From Candidatus Gastranaerophilales bacterium (GTDB lineage Bacteria; Cyanobacteriota; Vampirovibrionia; Gastranaerophilales; Gastranaerophilaceae): DNA of 35,991 bases. The notes under the pieces were generated by a model, which saw only the letters and a program-made list of their open reading frames with translations, was not told the DNA's origin and made no database searches. Made by a program: the position numbers and the translations under genes. The DNA lies in assembly GCA_944325075.1 (NCBI GenBank), contig CALUYU010000020.1, positions 1-35,991 of the forward strand. Direction: 5' to 3'. Positions 1-28,122 of this stretch are shown here, one piece after another. The first letter of the stretch is position 1, and each line of letters begins with the position of its first letter.

Positions 1-102
1 GTGAAAAATTTGAAGAAAGGTATTTTTGACAAAAACCCTTGTCTCCCTTGAGGTTCGTTACCCCCCCCCCCCCGTATTCCTCGCTATACTTGACTTTTCC
101 AT
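1..102 (-). CDS. 5' end of a prepilin-like gene, out of frame (G13), runs off the window
   Basis: Minus-strand ATG at 102-100, preceded by a strong SD (AGGAGGT) and a TTGAAA-16-TATAAT promoter. The first codons read MEKSSIARNT, then a run of G, then TAA at 60-58. The same promoter, SD and codons are found at the gene starting at 28072, where the tract is one base shorter and the frame stays open into a complete prepilin-like protein. Downstream of the tract, positions 1-60 match the other copy almost base for base, so this looks like a paralogue in its OFF state rather than noise. The rest of the gene lies left of the window, so its pilin domain cannot be confirmed. Confidence 0.65.
61..73 (-). 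repeat. Homopolymeric G13 tract (C13 on plus), candidate phase-variation switch
   Basis: Thirteen consecutive C on the plus strand, read as G on the coding strand, beginning in codon 10 of the truncated prepilin-like gene. At 13 G the frame meets TAA directly after the tract. Losing one base, or gaining two, restores the frame seen at 28072. Long G tracts are classic slipped-strand mispairing sites. A sequencing length error is possible at such a run. Confidence 0.75.
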
Positions 103-124
103 GTATCTACCTCCTTTTTCTTTT

Positions 125-7634: not shown

Positions 7635-7688
7635 ATGCAAAACCCAATCATAGCGACAATTTTCCTGATAGGGGGGGGGGCAGACTAA
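7635..7688 (+). CDS. Upstream ORF (17 codons) containing a G10 tract
   Basis: GGAGG at 7616-7620, then ATG at 7635, reading MQNPIIATIFLIGGGAD and a TAA at 7686-7688. The tract of 10 G sits in codons 13-16. With 9 or 12 G the same frame would stay open for another 60 codons to a TAA at 7861-7863, just before the SD of the next gene. With 11 G it stops soon. The peptide itself is hydrophobic and unrecognised. The SD-to-ATG gap (14 nt) is long, so translation is likely but not certain. Confidence 0.45.
   Translation: MQNPIIATIFLIGGGAD
7671..7680 (+). repeat. Homopolymeric G10 tract in the prepilin leader
   Basis: Ten G in a row, followed within 40 nt by GACAAGGGTTTT, a string also found just after the G tract at 28032-28043 and 61-73. 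Tract length decides how far the upstream ORF is translated. Confidence 0.7.
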
Positions 7689-7689
7689 G

Positions 7690-7862
7690 AACTTAAACCC
7701 TTATCGGACAAGGGTTTTGCGTGTTATTATTAATAGGTTTTCCTCGGAAAATTTTCTTGAACTCAGGATTGACGAATGGAGGGAATATTCCGTTTACAAT
7801 CCGGGGGATATTTTTAGGCGAAGGATTTCTCTTTCGCCGTTTTGTGCTGCTTATTTTTTTTA
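7690..7862 (+). promoter_or_regulatory. Structured leader RNA with terminator-like hairpins
   Basis: Between the upstream ORF and the SD I see an AAACCCTT (7695-7702) / AAGGGTTT (7710-7717) stem, a TTTTCC/GGAAAA stem near 7739-7750, a GGATTG/CAATCC stem from about 7767 to 7802, and GGCGAAGG (7817-7824) / CTTTCGCC (7831-7838) followed by a T-rich run ending in eight T. The last is a good intrinsic terminator placed just before the SD. It could be an attenuator or an unknown riboswitch. The c-di-GMP-I riboswitch signature is not present. Confidence 0.5.
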
Positions 7863-7878
7863 ATAAAAGGAGGTATCT

Positions 7879-9075
7879 ATGAATAAATTGTTCAAAAAAG
7901 CGGGGAACGAAGAAAACAATGTAGGTTGGGCTTTCAGCCCAACAATGAAATTATGTTGGGGTAGAAACCCCAACCTACATAAAAACTGCGATGACCTCAT
8001 AGGGAAAAAGTCGATAAATAGTTCCCCATGTCATCCTGAAATTGCAGCTCCTCTTGTTGCCGACGAAAAGGAGGCTTACAAGGGAGGGGGCTCGCAGAGT
8101 ATTTCAGGATCTTACCACCAACAAAAATGTTCTGCCAACTGCTCTCAAAAATCTAATGTTGGGGGCACACTTCAGGAAACCCCAACCTACAATAATATTT
8201 CGTTGAATACCAATGAGCGCAGCATAATAGGGCAGTGCCTCAGTCACCATTCGCCTCGTCGAATTGCGTTTACACTCGCTGAAGTTTTTTCACCATACTA
8301 CTGCTCGCCTCGCAAGGCTGCATTTACGTTAGCCGAGGTTCTTATAACCCTTGGCGTAATCGGTGTTGTTGCCGCAATGACTCTGCCTGCACTTATACAA
8401 AATTATGAAAAAATGGTTACGGTAAACAGATTAAAGGTAACATTTAATATTATGAGTAATGCAATAAGGATGGCTGAAGCTCATAACGGGGAAATTGGAG
8501 AATGGGATTTGGTCAGTAACGCAAGGAAAGAATATGAAGCAGCGTCAGATAAAGCATTAAGGGTACAAATAGCCAAAGAATATATCCTCCCATATTTAAA
8601 TGCAGCACAATTAACAGAAACAACAACACTTGCACAAATGGGCTATAAAACACCTTTTGCATATCCGGATGGTTCGATATATGCCCCGGTTACTGCAGCC
8701 GGCCCTGCTATAAGACTAAATAACGGTACAATAATATTATTAGCCGGGCAACTAGGTAGTGTTCCGGATCCAACTACGGGAAAACAAATAACCATAGGAA
8801 TGACTTTTTACATGGATATAGACGGCCCTAAGGGTAAAAATACAATTGGAAAAGATATTTTTGTTGCCGCTCTCCCCTTCGCAAATAAGACCAAATTCAT
8901 GATGGATGAGAAATGGACCTTAACCGGAAGCGGAAGTGGAAACCTTAATATGATTAAAGTAGAAAGCAAAAATAGAGATGATTTAATTAGGAATTGTAAA
9001 GAAAGACCAAGTTATTGCGGAAGACTGATACAGGCTGACGGGTGGGAAATTAAAGATGACTATCCATGGTGGTAA
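7879..9075 (+). CDS. Prepilin-like protein with long repeat-built leader
   Basis: 398 residues. The prepilin N-methylation/cleavage motif AAFTLAEVLITLGVIGVV, with hydrophobic helix and Glu5, starts at Phe149, far from the N-terminus; processing would be by the prepilin peptidase encoded at 10991. The first ~148 residues come largely from genomic repeats: VGWAFSPT (palindrome C), CWGRNPNL, and CHPEIAAPLVADEKEAYKGG (element D). A second AFTLAEV copy sits at residues ~130-136. The globular part ends with paired Cys and the motif GWEIKDDYPWW. The start ATG 7879 has a strong SD (AAAGGAGGT) and the leader is open throughout, so translation of the leader is plausible but unusual; class III or type II prepilin leaders are normally under ~30 residues. 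Likely a minor pilin or pseudopilin. Confidence 0.8.
   Translation: MNKLFKKAGNEENNVGWAFSPTMKLCWGRNPNLHKNCDDLIGKKSINSSPCHPEIAAPLVADEKEAYKGGGSQSISGSYHQQKCSANCSQKSNVGGTLQETPTYNNISLNTNERSIIGQCLSHHSPRRIAFTLAEVFSPYYCSPRKAAFTLAEVLITLGVIGVVAAMTLPALIQNYEKMVTVNRLKVTFNIMSNAIRMAEAHNGEIGEWDLVSNARKEYEAASDKALRVQIAKEYILPYLNAAQLTETTTLAQMGYKTPFAYPDGSIYAPVTAAGPAIRLNNGTIILLAGQLGSVPDPTTGKQITIGMTFYMDIDGPKGKNTIGKDIFVAALPFANKTKFMMDEKWTLTGSGSGNLNMIKVESKNRDDLIRNCKERPSYCGRLIQADGWEIKDDYPWW
7921..7980. repeat. Two palindromic C-family repeats inside the prepilin-like CDS
   Basis: GTTGGGCTTTCAGCCCAAC within 7921-7944 and the variant GTTGGGGTAGAAACCCCAAC within 7953-7980. Both are in frame and encode VGWAFSPT and CWGRNPNL. 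Similar peptides occur in the 27002-28072 gene. Confidence 0.75.
8030..8111. repeat. Repeat family D element inside the prepilin-like CDS
   Basis: About 80 bp bounded by ATCCTGAA (8033-8040) and TTCAGGAT (8103-8110). It is nearly identical, apart from orientation on the plus strand, to 27778-27855, and both are read in the same frame relative to the host gene. It is MITE-like in size and ends, but no target-site duplication is evident. A C-family variant follows at 8156-8192. Confidence 0.7.
8251..8340 (+). repeat. Tandem copy of the prepilin motif coding segment
   Basis: 36-nt units at 8251-8286 and 8305-8340 both encode SPR(R/K)xAFTLAEV. DNA identity is only about two thirds, so the duplication is old or the motif was acquired twice. 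Only the second unit is followed by the hydrophobic pilin helix. Confidence 0.7.
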
Positions 9076-10990: not shown

Positions 10991-11995
10991 CTAAAAATTT
11001 ACTATAAGCAAAAGTAACCCAGCAATTGCAAGTGCCGGCCCAAATGGCAGGTATGTTAAAGTATTTTTGTTCTTTAAGCCCTTAATAACTTCCAGGCAGG
11101 CCCAAATACCAAGAACAACCATCCCCGCAGTAGCCAAAATCAGATATAAACTATTATTTAATAAAGTTGTTTTATGTTGAACAACAAACATTCCGGCCGC
11201 GTATATAAAAAATAAAATAAGAGAAATAATAGTTTTCCAATCTTTATTTGCTGCAAGCTTTTTTATAAATAACGGCAATGTGAATATAATCTGTATAGCA
11301 ATACTTAAAATAACAATCCATATAATATTTTTCCAGCCAAAAACAGCTCCTAGCCCTGCCGCAATATAAGTATCACCTTCCCCGAAAGCTCTCTCTCCCG
11401 CAATCAGGTACCCGATACGTGCAGCAATTTCCATTATAACAGCACCTAAAATAAGTCCTAATAAAGACACCGTCATAGGATTAGTAAGGCACCACTCGGT
11501 TGTCGGCACAAAACCGACAATTGTATTTACCTTAACCAATATTTGGACAATAGTAAGATAAAAATTATAAAACAGCCCTATTGCAATCAGAGAATATGTA
11601 TGCGCGTCAAATACAACTCTTTCCTTTATATCCGTAACTGAAATAACAACCAGCAAACACATAATTATCAAAGCAAATATAGTGTCAATGCTAAGCCCGT
11701 AAACCATAAAAACAGCAACGAATAAACATCCGGTGATAAATTCTATAATCGGATACTGAATACTTATCGGCTCATGGCAAAAATAGCATTTCCCTCTTAA
11801 CAGAATATAAGAAATAATAGGAATATTATGCCACCACTTAAGACGGTTAGAACATTTCGGACATTTTGAAGGCGGCAAAACAATTGATTCCCCGCTGAAG
11901 GCCCTTAGAATAACAACATTAAGAAAACTTCCGAATATTGTTCCTATACAAAATACAAAAAATAAAATTCCAAATAATAATAAATACATGTTCAT
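10991..11995 (-). CDS. pilD: Type IV prepilin leader peptidase / N-methyltransferase
   Basis: Membrane aspartyl protease that cleaves prepilin leaders before Phe and methylates the new N-terminus. It has the N-terminal cytosolic domain with two zinc-binding CxxC pairs (CPKCSNRLKWWHNIP and CYFCHEP). The catalytic aspartates are in VTDIKERVVFD and in GEGDTYIAAGLGAVFGW, the A24 GxGD motif. About eight membrane spans follow. An ATG at 11995 with GAGG 9 nt upstream is preferred over the TTG at 12010; length is then 334 residues, longer than typical PilD (~290), with an extra hydrophobic C-terminal segment. It starts 11 bp after the sigma factor stop, so the two are one operon. It is the obvious processing enzyme for the prepilin-like genes in this window. 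Confidence 0.95.
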   Translation of the reverse strand: MNMYLLLFGILFFVFCIGTIFGSFLNVVILRAFSGESIVLPPSKCPKCSNRLKWWHNIPIISYILLRGKCYFCHEPISIQYPIIEFITGCLFVAVFMVYGLSIDTIFALIIMCLLVVISVTDIKERVVFDAHTYSLIAIGLFYNFYLTIVQILVKVNTIVGFVPTTEWCLTNPMTVSLLGLILGAVIMEIAARIGYLIAGERAFGEGDTYIAAGLGAVFGWKNIIWIVILSIAIQIIFTLPLFIKKLAANKDWKTIISLILFFIYAAGMFVVQHKTTLLNNSLYLILATAGMVVLGIWACLEVIKGLKNKNTLTYLPFGPALAIAGLLLLIVNF

Positions 11996-12006
11996 ATAAA
12001 ATATCC

Positions 12007-12780
12007 TCAATATCTTTTAATTATTTCATACATTTTATTAAGGGCTTTTTTAAGCCTTCTCGAAACCTGCATCTGGGAAAGATTAAGTTTTTCAGAGATT
12101 TCTCTCTGGTTAAGTTCCTCATAAAAACTCAACTCCAATACCTCTTTTAAATCCGCAGGAAGTTTTTCAATAGCGCTTTCAATCATCAGCTTATCTTCAT
12201 ACGAATTCCAGAATTCCTGATAATCACCAGACGGAATCTTATCCAAAAGCGAAATGTCCTCATTATCAGAAGAAATTGTCTGGTCAAGAGAAATCATTGT
12301 TTTATACTGCTCAACCTTCATTACCTCTTCAACCTTTTCCAGAGGAATATTAATATATTGCGCAATCTGGGTATTTGTCGGATCAATATTCCCGGCTTCT
12401 TTAAACTCTTTTCTGGCGTTATAAATTTTGAACATTATCTCCTGAAGTTTACGCGGGGTTTTTATGAGTGCTGCTTTATCCCTTATGTAATGCCTGATTT
12501 CGCCCTTGATAAAATAATTTGCATAAGTATAAAACTTTGCATTTTTATCAGGTTCAAAAAATTTAACGGCCTTAATTAAGCCGACAGCTCCGACCTGGAC
12601 AAGATCTTCCATAGGCGATAGTGCCTGAAATGCAAGAGGAGCAGCAATTTTTTTTACAAGATCCATTCCAAGCTCTATAATCCTTATATGAAGCATCCTC
12701 TTTTTTTTCTCGTCCTTACAGGTTTTATATAAAATTATCAGTTCATCAATATTACTATTGGCTTTTGTGTCAGCTTTCAA
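12007..12780 (-). CDS. Alternative sigma factor, sigma-70 family (SigB/SigF/SigG type)
   Basis: 257 residues with regions 2, 3 and 4 but no region 1.1. Region 2 includes MEDLVQVGAVGLIKAVKFFE and FYTYANYFIKGEIRHYIRD. Region 3 has DPTNTQIAQYINIP. Region 4 is LPADLKEVLELSFYEELNQ plus the helix-turn-helix QREISEKLNLSQMQVSRRLK. The layout matches group 3 factors such as cyanobacterial SigF and Bacillus SigB/F. The start is a TTG at 12780 with GGGAG 6 nt upstream. It is cotranscribed with the prepilin peptidase; in Synechocystis SigF controls pilus genes (established knowledge), which fits. No anti-sigma gene lies next to it. Confidence 0.92.
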   Translation of the reverse strand: MKADTKANSNIDELIILYKTCKDEKKKRMLHIRIIELGMDLVKKIAAPLAFQALSPMEDLVQVGAVGLIKAVKFFEPDKNAKFYTYANYFIKGEIRHYIRDKAALIKTPRKLQEIMFKIYNARKEFKEAGNIDPTNTQIAQYINIPLEKVEEVMKVEQYKTMISLDQTISSDNEDISLLDKIPSGDYQEFWNSYEDKLMIESAIEKLPADLKEVLELSFYEELNQREISEKLNLSQMQVSRRLKKALNKMYEIIKRY

Positions 12781-23809: not shown

Positions 23810-24713
23810 AATAATCTTTTTTGGTACTCCGCAGATAGCCCTGAAATCACTTGAGTATTTGTATAATTCTGAAAATATTGAAGTGTCCGCAGTTGTTACG
23901 CAACCTGATAAACCGGCAGGCCGCGGACATAAATTAACAATGTCCCCGATAAAAGAGTTTGCGATTAACCACAGTATTCCGGTCTTTCAGCCAAAATCAA
24001 TCAGAAAAGAACCTGAAATCCAAGAAGAACTGAAAAAACTTAACCCGGATTTTTTTGTAACATTTGCGTTCGGGCAAATATTATCCCAGGAAGTACTGGA
24101 TATTCCTAAGTTCGAAACAATTAACCTTCATGCATCGCTTTTGCCTAAATACCGAGGAGCAAACCCTATTCAACGTGCAATTATTAACGGAGATAAAGAA
24201 ACGGGAATTTGTACTATGATTACAGAGTTGGGCCTTGATTGCGGCGATGTCTGTAAAAAAATTACAATCCCAATCTCTGAAGAGATGAATTGTGAAGAAT
24301 TGTGTGAAGAAATTAGTGAAAAGTCACCCAAACTTATAGAAGAAACTCTTCTTGGATTATTCAACCATACAATTAAGCCTGAAAAACAATGTGAAGAAGG
24401 TGTTTGCATGGCCAATAAGTTGAATAAAGAAGAAACAGAAATAAATTTTGAAAGACCTGCAAATGAAATACACAATTTAGTAAGAGGAATTTATAAATCT
24501 CCTTCAGCATACTTCAAGCACAACGGAAAAATCATAAAAGTTATGAAAACCTGCGTTTGTGAAGGGAAAGGGACGCCCGGAGAATTTGTGGAAGTAACAA
24601 AGGAAGGTATAAAAGTAGCATGCGGCAAAAATTGCATTATGCTAATAAAAGTAAAACCTGAAGGTAAGGGAGAAATGCCAGCCAGAGACTGGTATAACGG
24701 ATTAAAAAAATAG
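23802..24713 (+). CDS. fmt: Methionyl-tRNA formyltransferase
   Basis: Formylates initiator Met-tRNA with 10-formyl-tetrahydrofolate. The N-terminal domain starts IIFFGTPQIALKSLEYL. The catalytic region is INLHASLLPKYRGANPIQRA near residue 107, with the Asn-His pair, and ELGLDCGDV follows. The C-terminal OB-like domain begins about residue 205 (IHNLVRGIYKSPSAYFKHNG). Length 303 is standard. It is translationally coupled to def and followed after 12 bp by aroH. Confidence 0.97.
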   Translation: MIKIIFFGTPQIALKSLEYLYNSENIEVSAVVTQPDKPAGRGHKLTMSPIKEFAINHSIPVFQPKSIRKEPEIQEELKKLNPDFFVTFAFGQILSQEVLDIPKFETINLHASLLPKYRGANPIQRAIINGDKETGICTMITELGLDCGDVCKKITIPISEEMNCEELCEEISEKSPKLIEETLLGLFNHTIKPEKQCEEGVCMANKLNKEETEINFERPANEIHNLVRGIYKSPSAYFKHNGKIIKVMKTCVCEGKGTPGEFVEVTKEGIKVACGKNCIMLIKVKPEGKGEMPARDWYNGLKK

Positions 24714-24720
24714 GGGGGGG
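24713..24720 (+). repeat. G8 tract doubling as the SD of aroH
   Basis: Eight G beginning with the last base of the fmt stop codon and ending 5 nt before the aroH ATG. No other SD is visible, so the run itself must serve. Changes in tract length would shift SD-to-start spacing without altering any protein. Confidence 0.5.
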
Positions 24721-26970: not shown

Positions 26971-27003
26971 AAAAAAGCCTCCCTTATTGCGGGAGGCTTT
27001 TTT
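26971..27003. terminator. Bidirectional terminator between glnA and the prepilin-like gene
   Basis: AAAAAAGCCTCCC (26971-26983) pairs perfectly with 26991-27003, a 13-bp stem with flanking A and T runs. Its right arm includes part of the stop codon of the convergent gene. Confidence 0.9.
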
Positions 27004-28072
27004 ATAACCAGGGATAGTCATCAGGAATTTTCCAGCCATTTTTCATTATAAGTGCAGCACACCCCCAACGTCTTCCCGTATCAATATTATAACATTGATT
27101 TTTTAAGCCCTCAATGGAGTTAGAGGAGGTAGCAAATATAGGATCTACAGCAGGTTTATTTCTGTCATAAATAAATAAAAAACTATTAGAACCGTCATAC
27201 CTTCCACGATCACATTTAGAATAATTAAGACAAAAGAATATATATAGATTATCGTTGCTTGATTCTTCAGTCAGACTTGAAAAGTAACTATTAAAACCAC
27301 TTCCGTCAAGAAAAGCCACCCTATAATAAGCACGACTTACGTCCACGCCTTCTTCTTTTATAAGTTTGATGTATTTTGTAATATAAGTTTTATACCAATT
27401 CTCAATATAAGCGGCGTTGGTAGAATTTTCCCCATGCTGAGACTCTAATGGGATGTCATTATGTTCAGCAAGTGACATAGTTACAGCCTGATTCATTATT
27501 GAGTAAAATTTTTGGAGCTTAACTTCAACAACCTGTCGTTTATACTTTGATATTATAGTCGGCAAAGTCATCGCGGCAACAATCCCGATTATGCCTAGGG
27601 TTATTAAAACCTCTGCCAGGGTAAAAGCAGCTTTGCTAGGTGTGGAGTCAGCTTTTTGTAGGTTGGGGGTTCTAACACAACAATATTTTAATGTTGGGCT
27701 GAAAGCCCAACCTACTTTATCTAATACCTCTTTCCCTGATACAGTACAGATTGTCACACATTTTTGTTGGTGGCTAGATCCTGAAATACTCTGCGAGCAC
27801 CCTCCCTTGTAAGCCTCCTTTTCGTCGGCAACAAGAGGAGCTGCGAGTTCAGGATGACATTGTAAATTTATTATTGATCTTTTTCCTATGAGTCCCACAC
27901 AGTTCAATGTATGTTGGGGTTTCACCCCAACATAATATTTATTTATAACTGATACAGAAAACTTTGATTTTGAGAAAAATTTGAAGAAAGGTATTTTTGA
28001 CAAAAACCCTTGTCTCCCTTGAGGTTCGTTACCCCCCCCCCCCGTATACCGTGCTATACTTGACTTTTCCAT
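27002..28072 (-). CDS. Prepilin-like protein with in-frame G12 tract and repeat-built leader
   Basis: 356 residues. ATG 28072 has a strong SD (AAAGGAGGT) and promoter. A Gly run from the G tract occupies residues 11-14. Residues 15-148 include repeat-derived segments: CHPELAAPLVADEKEAYKGG (element D), then VGWAFSPT (palindrome C) and CCVRTPNLQ. The prepilin motif AAFTLAEVLITLGIIGIV starts at Phe150, with the hydrophobic helix and Glu at position 5. The globular part ends with CAALIMKNGWKIPDDYPW, matching the other prepilin-like gene's GWEIKDDYPW. Tract length here keeps the frame open (ON); the paralogue at 102 has one more base and is closed. A likely minor pilin or pseudopilin for the prepilin peptidase at 10991. 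Confidence 0.82.
   Translation of the reverse strand: MEKSSIARYTGGGGNEPQGRQGFLSKIPFFKFFSKSKFSVSVINKYYVGVKPQHTLNCVGLIGKRSIINLQCHPELAAPLVADEKEAYKGGCSQSISGSSHQQKCVTICTVSGKEVLDKVGWAFSPTLKYCCVRTPNLQKADSTPSKAAFTLAEVLITLGIIGIVAAMTLPTIISKYKRQVVEVKLQKFYSIMNQAVTMSLAEHNDIPLESQHGENSTNAAYIENWYKTYITKYIKLIKEEGVDVSRAYYRVAFLDGSGFNSYFSSLTEESSNDNLYIFFCLNYSKCDRGRYDGSNSFLFIYDRNKPAVDPIFATSSNSIEGLKNQCYNIDTGRRWGCAALIMKNGWKIPDDYPWL
27658..27715. repeat. C-family palindromes inside the prepilin-like CDS
   Basis: GTTGGGCTGAAAGCCCAAC within 27690-27715, preceded by a half-copy at 27658-27681. On the coding strand they read VGWAFSPT then VRTPNLQ, the same order as in the 7879 gene. A further C variant, GTTGGGGTTTCACCCCAAC, lies in the same CDS near 27913-27931. 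Confidence 0.7.
27778..27855. repeat. Repeat family D element inside the prepilin-like CDS
   Basis: Ends ATCCTGAA (27778-27785) and TTCAGGAT (27848-27855); the body is almost the same as 8033-8110 in reverse. Flanking sequence on one side (CTATGAGG-like, encoding IGK(R/K)SI) is also shared with 28215-28262 and 7990-8028, so the conserved unit is longer than the element. Confidence 0.7.
28032..28043 (-). repeat. Homopolymeric G12 tract in the prepilin-like CDS (ON length)
   Basis: Twelve C on plus, G on the coding strand, spanning codons 10-14. At this length the frame continues through GGTAACGAACCT into the full protein. One base more gives the TAA seen in the paralogue at 61-73. Confidence 0.8.
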
Positions 28073-28094
28073 ATATCTACCTCCTTTTTCTTTT

Positions 28095-28122
28095 ATTATA
28101 TACTATTTCTTATATTTTTCAA
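28095..28122 (-). promoter_or_regulatory. Promoter of the 27002-28072 prepilin-like gene
   Basis: Minus strand TTGAAA (28122-28117), 16-nt spacer, TATAAT (28100-28095), giving a leader of about 16 nt. Confidence 0.75.

Follow-up and report, generated by a model that had tools for sequence, protein, structure and literature searches.

A poly-G tract as a putative translational switch in the leaders of a prepilin-like gene family of Candidatus Gastranaerophilales

Introduction

Does the run of 12 G residues close to the start of a prepilin-like gene of Candidatus Gastranaerophilales act as a translational ON/OFF switch, and is a near-identical copy with 13 G residues a natural example of the opposite state? 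That G-runs can cause phase variation through frameshifts is textbook biology. Most known poly-G contingency loci belong to proteobacterial pathogens and commensals adapted to a host, a genome such as that of Neisseria distributing some 15-20 of these tracts among many functions. The lineage under study is an uncultured, non-photosynthetic cyanobacterial branch of animal guts. Both copies lie in the window, which is the entire contig C20 (35,991 nucleotides) of a fragmented MAG of 2.26 Mb. A sequence-only reading of this window had proposed slipped-strand phase variation of a pilin-type surface protein. Here, we analyze the two copies, the family of similar modules in the genome, and their counterparts in related genomes.

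Results and Discussion

Two copies of the module in the window

The tract of the gene starting at position 28072 (Table 1) is separated by 29 nt from the ATG (28072-28070, minus strand), and the reading frame crosses it without interruption (...TAT ACG GGG GGG GGG GGT AAC GAA...). On the minus strand, the gene from 28072 reads MEKSSIARYTGGGGNEPQGRQGFLSKIP... and continues for 356 codons without a stop, ending at 27002; it adjoins recJ, whose named near relatives come from MAGs of Candidatus Gastranaerophilales. The copy at the left edge of the window, with the ATG at 102-100, reads MEKSSIARNTGGGG and then encounters a TAA abutting the tract, which gives a peptide of 14 aa. Base 1 of the window is a contig end and the body of the left-edge gene lies beyond it, approximately 19 codons behind the tract (bases 1-60) being present. 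The SD sequence, the TATAAT box, the first codons, and the sequence following the tract are common to both copies. Thus, the sequence-only reading was exact in assigning G12 and G13 to the two tracts, with one copy open and the other closed by a stop that abuts its tract, and in describing a shared promoter, SD sequence, and flanks.

Table 1. Features of the candidate switch modules and of the prepilin peptidase gene in the window
Feature	Coordinates	Strand	Basis or remark
-35-like TTGAAA, 16 nt from -10	28117..28122	-	read by eye
-10 TATAAT	28095..28100	-	in 53/54 type-A modules
Shine-Dalgarno GGAGG	28080..28084	-	kept among modules
Prepilin gene of 356 aa, putatively phase-variable, ON in the assembly, coordinates including stop	27002..28072	-	PF07963, TIGR02532, PF20318 matches
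G12 tract (C12 on +), ON (multiple of 3)	28032..28043	-	sequence read, exact position
Leader, 135 codons, from tract to prepilin motif, in part dispersed palindromic repeats	27626..28031	-	
Class III (prepilin) signal, AA^FTLAEVLITLGIIGIVAAMTLP; F codon 27625-27623	27559..27631	-	
Left-edge copy, 14-codon OFF frame, ends with TAA (58-60)	58..102	-	
G13 tract (C13 on +), OFF	61..73	-	exact position
Shine-Dalgarno GGAGG of left-edge copy	110..114	-	
G10 tract of type-B module	7671..7680	+	32 type-B tracts in genome, 28 of them G10
Prepilin gene behind type-B tract, own SD and ATG	7879..9075	+	PF07963, 23.7 bits
Prepilin peptidase	10991..12010	-	only PF01478 match in genome

Prepilin identity of the product

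The earlier description of the 28072 product as prepilin-like was confirmed by profile searches, in which the protein scored above the cut-offs for PF07963 (23.0 bits, cut-off 21.2), TIGR02532 (19.4 bits, cut-off 16.3), and PF20318, a family of unknown function (34.6 bits). Its class III signal comprises the cleavage/methylation motif with E5 and a hydrophobic helix. The mature part was modelled with AlphaFold2 from 7 sequences (pLDDT 79.4, pTM 0.77); the model predicts a helix over mature residues 3-55 followed by several strands, a pilin-like arrangement. A Foldseek comparison of the predicted pilin domain with solved structures (PDB) returned nothing similar (best E 0.6). An identity with the competence minor pilin ComGD was not supported by the NCBIfam equivalog model (33.6 bits vs a cut-off of 70). 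Type IV prepilins typically have short leaders of about 5-30 residues; the leader of the 28072 protein has 149 residues, and the gene is therefore termed prepilin-like with an extended leader.

For processing and assembly, the genome encodes a sole prepilin peptidase, together with homologues of the assembly ATPase (several T2SSE ATPase genes). The peptidase gene is adjoined by a gene for a sigma-70-family factor (12007-12780) that might control pilus genes.

A genome-wide family of poly-G modules

A search of the genome with the 166-bp leader revealed at least 40 copies. Pattern searches identified 58 tracts of at least 9 G following TAC and 33 following ATA, one of the latter (L144) being reassigned to type A upon locus-by-locus reading. 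In total, there are 59 assembled instances of the type-A module (promoter, SD, start, and poly-G) and 32 type-B tracts. The type-A tracts range from G10 to G18 with the mode at G13 (G10, 1; G11, 3; G12, 11; G13, 35; G14, 7; G15, 1; G18, 1); these are assembled values that may carry consensus errors, and each species is represented by a single genome in the collections. Contig ends interrupt 31 of the 59 copies, 21 of them downstream and 10 upstream of the tract, so some genes may have been counted twice; the number of distinct type-A genes is at least 49 (28 complete copies and 21 promoter-side ends). The genome contains 128 runs of at least 9 G vs about 0.6 expected from base composition, and thus the tracts are not due to chance. 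PF07963 has at least 150 matches in the genome. The two copies in the window, which the sequence-only reading had set against each other as a natural pair, are both real, but they are two among the 59 instances rather than a pair.

Several other assignments were considered and rejected. A silent-cassette system of the pilE/pilS type, in which the silent copies lack promoters and a single locus is expressed, is not the case here, as TATAAT precedes the start in nearly every type-A module. A phage or mobile origin of the module found no support in scans of genome collections and viral contigs, no module copy being found in the latter. The G8 run at 24713-24720 is not a module; it is an intergenic run ahead of a chorismate mutase gene.

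Type-B tracts are all G10 (28 tracts) or G11 (4 tracts), and from their ATG the frame would be OFF. A clear SD sequence is absent in many type-B copies, and for some of the pilins behind them there is a start of their own. In the type-B module of the window (7635-9075), the ATG and G10 are followed by a frame-0 ORF of approximately 60 codons that ends just before the separate SD and ATG of the prepilin gene; similar ORFs of 60-66 codons occur in other type-B copies. This arrangement may hint at translational coupling.

Frame logic of the type-A copies

In 38 type-A copies, the tract is followed by 650 nt of sequence or more. In 33 of them, one frame is open from the tract to the prepilin motif, compared with 0.24 expected when the leaders are shuffled with their length and composition preserved. 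The open leaders between tract and motif comprise 45 to 154 codons. The frame of the motif is open for a median of 359 codons, and the other two frames for a median of 11 and a maximum of 35 codons. In 47 of 54 copies, the tract is immediately followed by TAA, and thus one OFF phase (G13) stops there. Of the 28 copies located well inside contigs, 23 are open, 6 of them ON and 17 OFF. Since the OFF copies are open from the tract to the motif, they are intact genes and not decayed ones. Most type-A copies are OFF and a minority ON; a bias to OFF beyond chance is not significant in this genome, the ON share (6/23) being no different from one third. The modules display four characteristic features of contingency loci: (i) a tract of at least 9 G lies in the 5' coding region, (ii) a change by one unit toggles between the full ORF and an early stop, (iii) the out-of-frame gene is intact, and (iv) tracts within conserved flanks differ in length from copy to copy or from species to species.

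The early codons of the leader show no synonymous excess (10 synonymous vs 502 non-synonymous pairwise changes), so it is not conserved at the protein level. The possibility that it forms a conserved peptide domain was rejected on the same grounds, and the leader looks like a tolerant spacer. A dispersed palindromic repeat is present in 30 of the 38 leaders. Palindromic repeats of the GTTGGGCTGAAAGCCCAAC and TGTCATCCTGAAC types occur both between genes and in frame within prepilin leaders and are reminiscent of Rickettsia palindromic elements; the sites in the window are 266-284, 475-493, 7925-7974, 27693-27711, and 27913-27931. Many leaders (L121, L127, L168, L169, and others; 8269-8340 in the window) also contain the prepilin motif in one to three incomplete copies (FTLAEVFSPYYYSPRKVAFTLAEVLITLG), and thus may offer more than one cleavage site.

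Recurrence in other genera and evolution of individual loci

Within the family, 63 of 145 genomes, representing 21 of the 41 genera sampled, have the pattern of an SD sequence, an ATG, 20-40 nt, and G9, with the reversed pattern used as a control being near zero. Elsewhere in the phylum, the pattern is at background: most genomes have none, and the maximum of 7 is not far above the control. In three genomes of other genera, one frame leads from the tract to a prepilin motif at 16 of 20 (G154), 16 of 16 (G033), and 5 of 5 (G091) loci, in total 37 of the 41 loci read; of these 41 loci, 7 are ON. The sequences flanking these tracts are unrelated to those of the studied genome. The motif often follows the tract by only 2-36 codons in the same frame, and several tracts stand 2 to 20 codons ahead of it, within an ordinary prepilin leader. 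In other genera, three loci (L201, L203, and L215) have an SD-ATG-polyG arrangement ahead of open frames without a prepilin motif, one being glycosyltransferase-like and one reductase-like as judged by eye; genes other than prepilins may be switched too.

The number of poly-G tracts follows the number of prepilins within the genus (Spearman rho 0.89, P 0.0006, n=10), prepilin-poor genomes being almost devoid of poly-G runs. Across the order, the correlation is weaker because of G037, which has 92 prepilin candidates and zero runs of at least 9 G. Large prepilin repertoires thus also exist without a poly-G switch.

Comparison of tract lengths in related genomes, which had been suggested as a check of the phase-variation proposal, revealed differences at two orthologous flanks (12 vs 14 G and 12 vs 13 G). 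The sister-species orthologue of the pilin beside recJ (69% identical) has G13 and is also ON, because a T is absent. One copy in the genome G011 has an interrupted tract (GGGGAGGGGGG) and is presumably locked OFF. The 1.5-kb upstream flanks of L280 in G011 and L028 in G000 are 98% identical, and the module and the pilin behind them differ, which reflects either cassette exchange or chimeric assembly. The orthology of L283 and L002 was discarded since the flank was on the wrong side.

Proposed mechanism and alternative explanations

With the tract, its frames, the intact OFF genes, the size of the family, and the recurrence across genera established, we consider it very probable that the poly-G tract is a translational ON/OFF switch located in a type IV prepilin-like leader, and that the genome has at least about 50 genes of this kind. 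Less favorable to this view are the location of 31 of the 59 copies at contig ends, the early leader codons with no synonymous excess, an ON share indistinguishable from one third, the type-B tracts at G10 and G11, and the negative Foldseek result. The slipped-strand phase variation put forward by the sequence-only reading is the interpretation best backed by the sequence, given the intact OFF ORFs, the closed wrong frames, the variable tracts with conserved flanks, and the recurrence with unrelated sequences in other genera. In the proposed mechanism, transcription would start from the conserved TATAAT promoter and translation from the SD and ATG 29 nt before the tract, and replication slippage would reversibly alter the number of G residues. 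At lengths divisible by three (G12), reading would continue through the leader into the prepilin, G13 would lead to TAA at once, and G10, G11, and G14 would lead to a stop within a few dozen codons. Whichever prepilins are produced would be processed by the single prepilin peptidase and displayed on the surface. Since each copy would switch alone, with most copies OFF, a population would contain many combinations of exposed pilins. At any moment, a cell probably presents only a small and shifting subset of its pilins, and the benefit is probably evasion of host immunity or phages, or variation of adhesion. Tentatively, this picture might extend to 50 to 100 independently switched prepilins per genome in this family, mostly OFF, giving a nearly unique pilus to each cell, with pilin bodies also exchanged between near-identical modules; such a repertoire would be among the largest single-theme phase-variable repertoires known.

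The intact state of the OFF genes would also fit a tract that is simply tolerated, polymerase or ribosome slippage mixing the frames so that the G13 genes are steadily expressed at a low level and tract length tunes only the dose. Transcriptional slippage can indeed arise at runs of 10 to 18 G. Nevertheless, tolerance by itself does not account for tract lengths that differ from copy to copy, for a design that recurs within different flanks, or for the stop abutting the tract in one phase, and we regard it as unlikely. Another explanation treats the SD-ATG-polyG unit as a short leader peptide or an untranslated control element, the pilin being started downstream and the frame of the tract being irrelevant. 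This layout holds for several type-B copies, including the gene at 7879-9075, whose separate SD and ATG both lie downstream of the tract, and it agrees with the lack of protein-level constraint on the leader codons. For the type-A copies, it is very unlikely in view of the large excess of frames open to the motif over the shuffled expectation, as well as the short in-frame distances between tract and motif in other genera.

The module could instead be mainly a recombination site, at which pilin bodies are swapped behind a common promoter and tract with the G-run as the crossover point. The L280/L028 case, in which different pilins follow nearly identical flanks, points in this direction, but chimeric assembly at repeats explains it equally well; moreover, the frame logic would be superfluous, and every copy has its own promoter. 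We consider such a main role extremely unlikely, although recombination could act in addition to the switch. The idea that true tract lengths are uniform and the OFF state is a homopolymer-calling artefact draws on the fragmentation of the MAG, with many copies at contig ends. It is hardly credible, as calling errors would not do away with the runs of at least 10 G themselves or with their identical placement in dozens of genes and several genera, and internal copies far from contig ends also range from G10 to G14.

Comparison with known phase-variable systems

The sequence-only reading knew of no description of such a switch in this lineage, and a limited search of the open-access literature agrees: the combination of phase variation with Gastranaerophilales gave nothing in open-access full text, the combination with Melainabacteria gave one flagellin survey only, and combinations with cyanobacteria gave no open-access title or abstract on poly-G pilin switching. 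Within the literature searched, the scale, the target, and the lineage appear to be undescribed. If the switching is true, combinatorial pilus variation in gut commensals is directly testable with existing metagenome reads, and there is a warning for annotation: gene callers will take most such pilins for pseudogenes or place their starts wrongly.

The nearest pilus-related case is Neisseria pilC1/pilC2, where a G or C run within the ORF, with tracts of about 9-20, frameshifts a pilus-related gene (PMC5953494). The likeness lies in a long in-ORF G/C run that switches by frameshift; however, Neisseria has two pilC genes encoding a pilus-retraction/adhesion protein, whereas the studied genome has at least about 50 prepilin genes. 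At an equal threshold of at least 9 G, meningococcus, gonococcus, and N. lactamica have 15.4-19.4 poly-G tracts per genome (PMC5953494), compared with 128 in the studied genome. The Opa repertoire of Neisseria, with about 11 genes (PMC3745409) switched by CTTCT repeats (PMC5953494), is similarly a family of surface proteins encoded at scattered sites, in which a repeat within the reading frame switches every member on its own. In Opa, the repeat is a pentamer and the product an outer-membrane protein, whereas here a G-run precedes a prepilin and the family is several times larger. Neisseria pilE/pilS shares with the present family the variation of pilins, but it operates by gene conversion, with silent cassettes donating sequence to a single expressed locus, whereas here each copy has its own promoter, SD sequence, and start.

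The phasomes of Campylobacter and Helicobacter include many poly-G/C contingency genes per genome, turned ON and OFF by slippage and having mixed functions. In contrast to this mixture, a large majority of the examined loci in Gastranaerophilales are prepilins. Thus, what appears to be new is the copy number within one protein family, the target, which is the prepilin itself with the tract in its leader, and the lineage: an uncultured gut cyanobacterial lineage would devote dozens of such switches to a single family of proteins.
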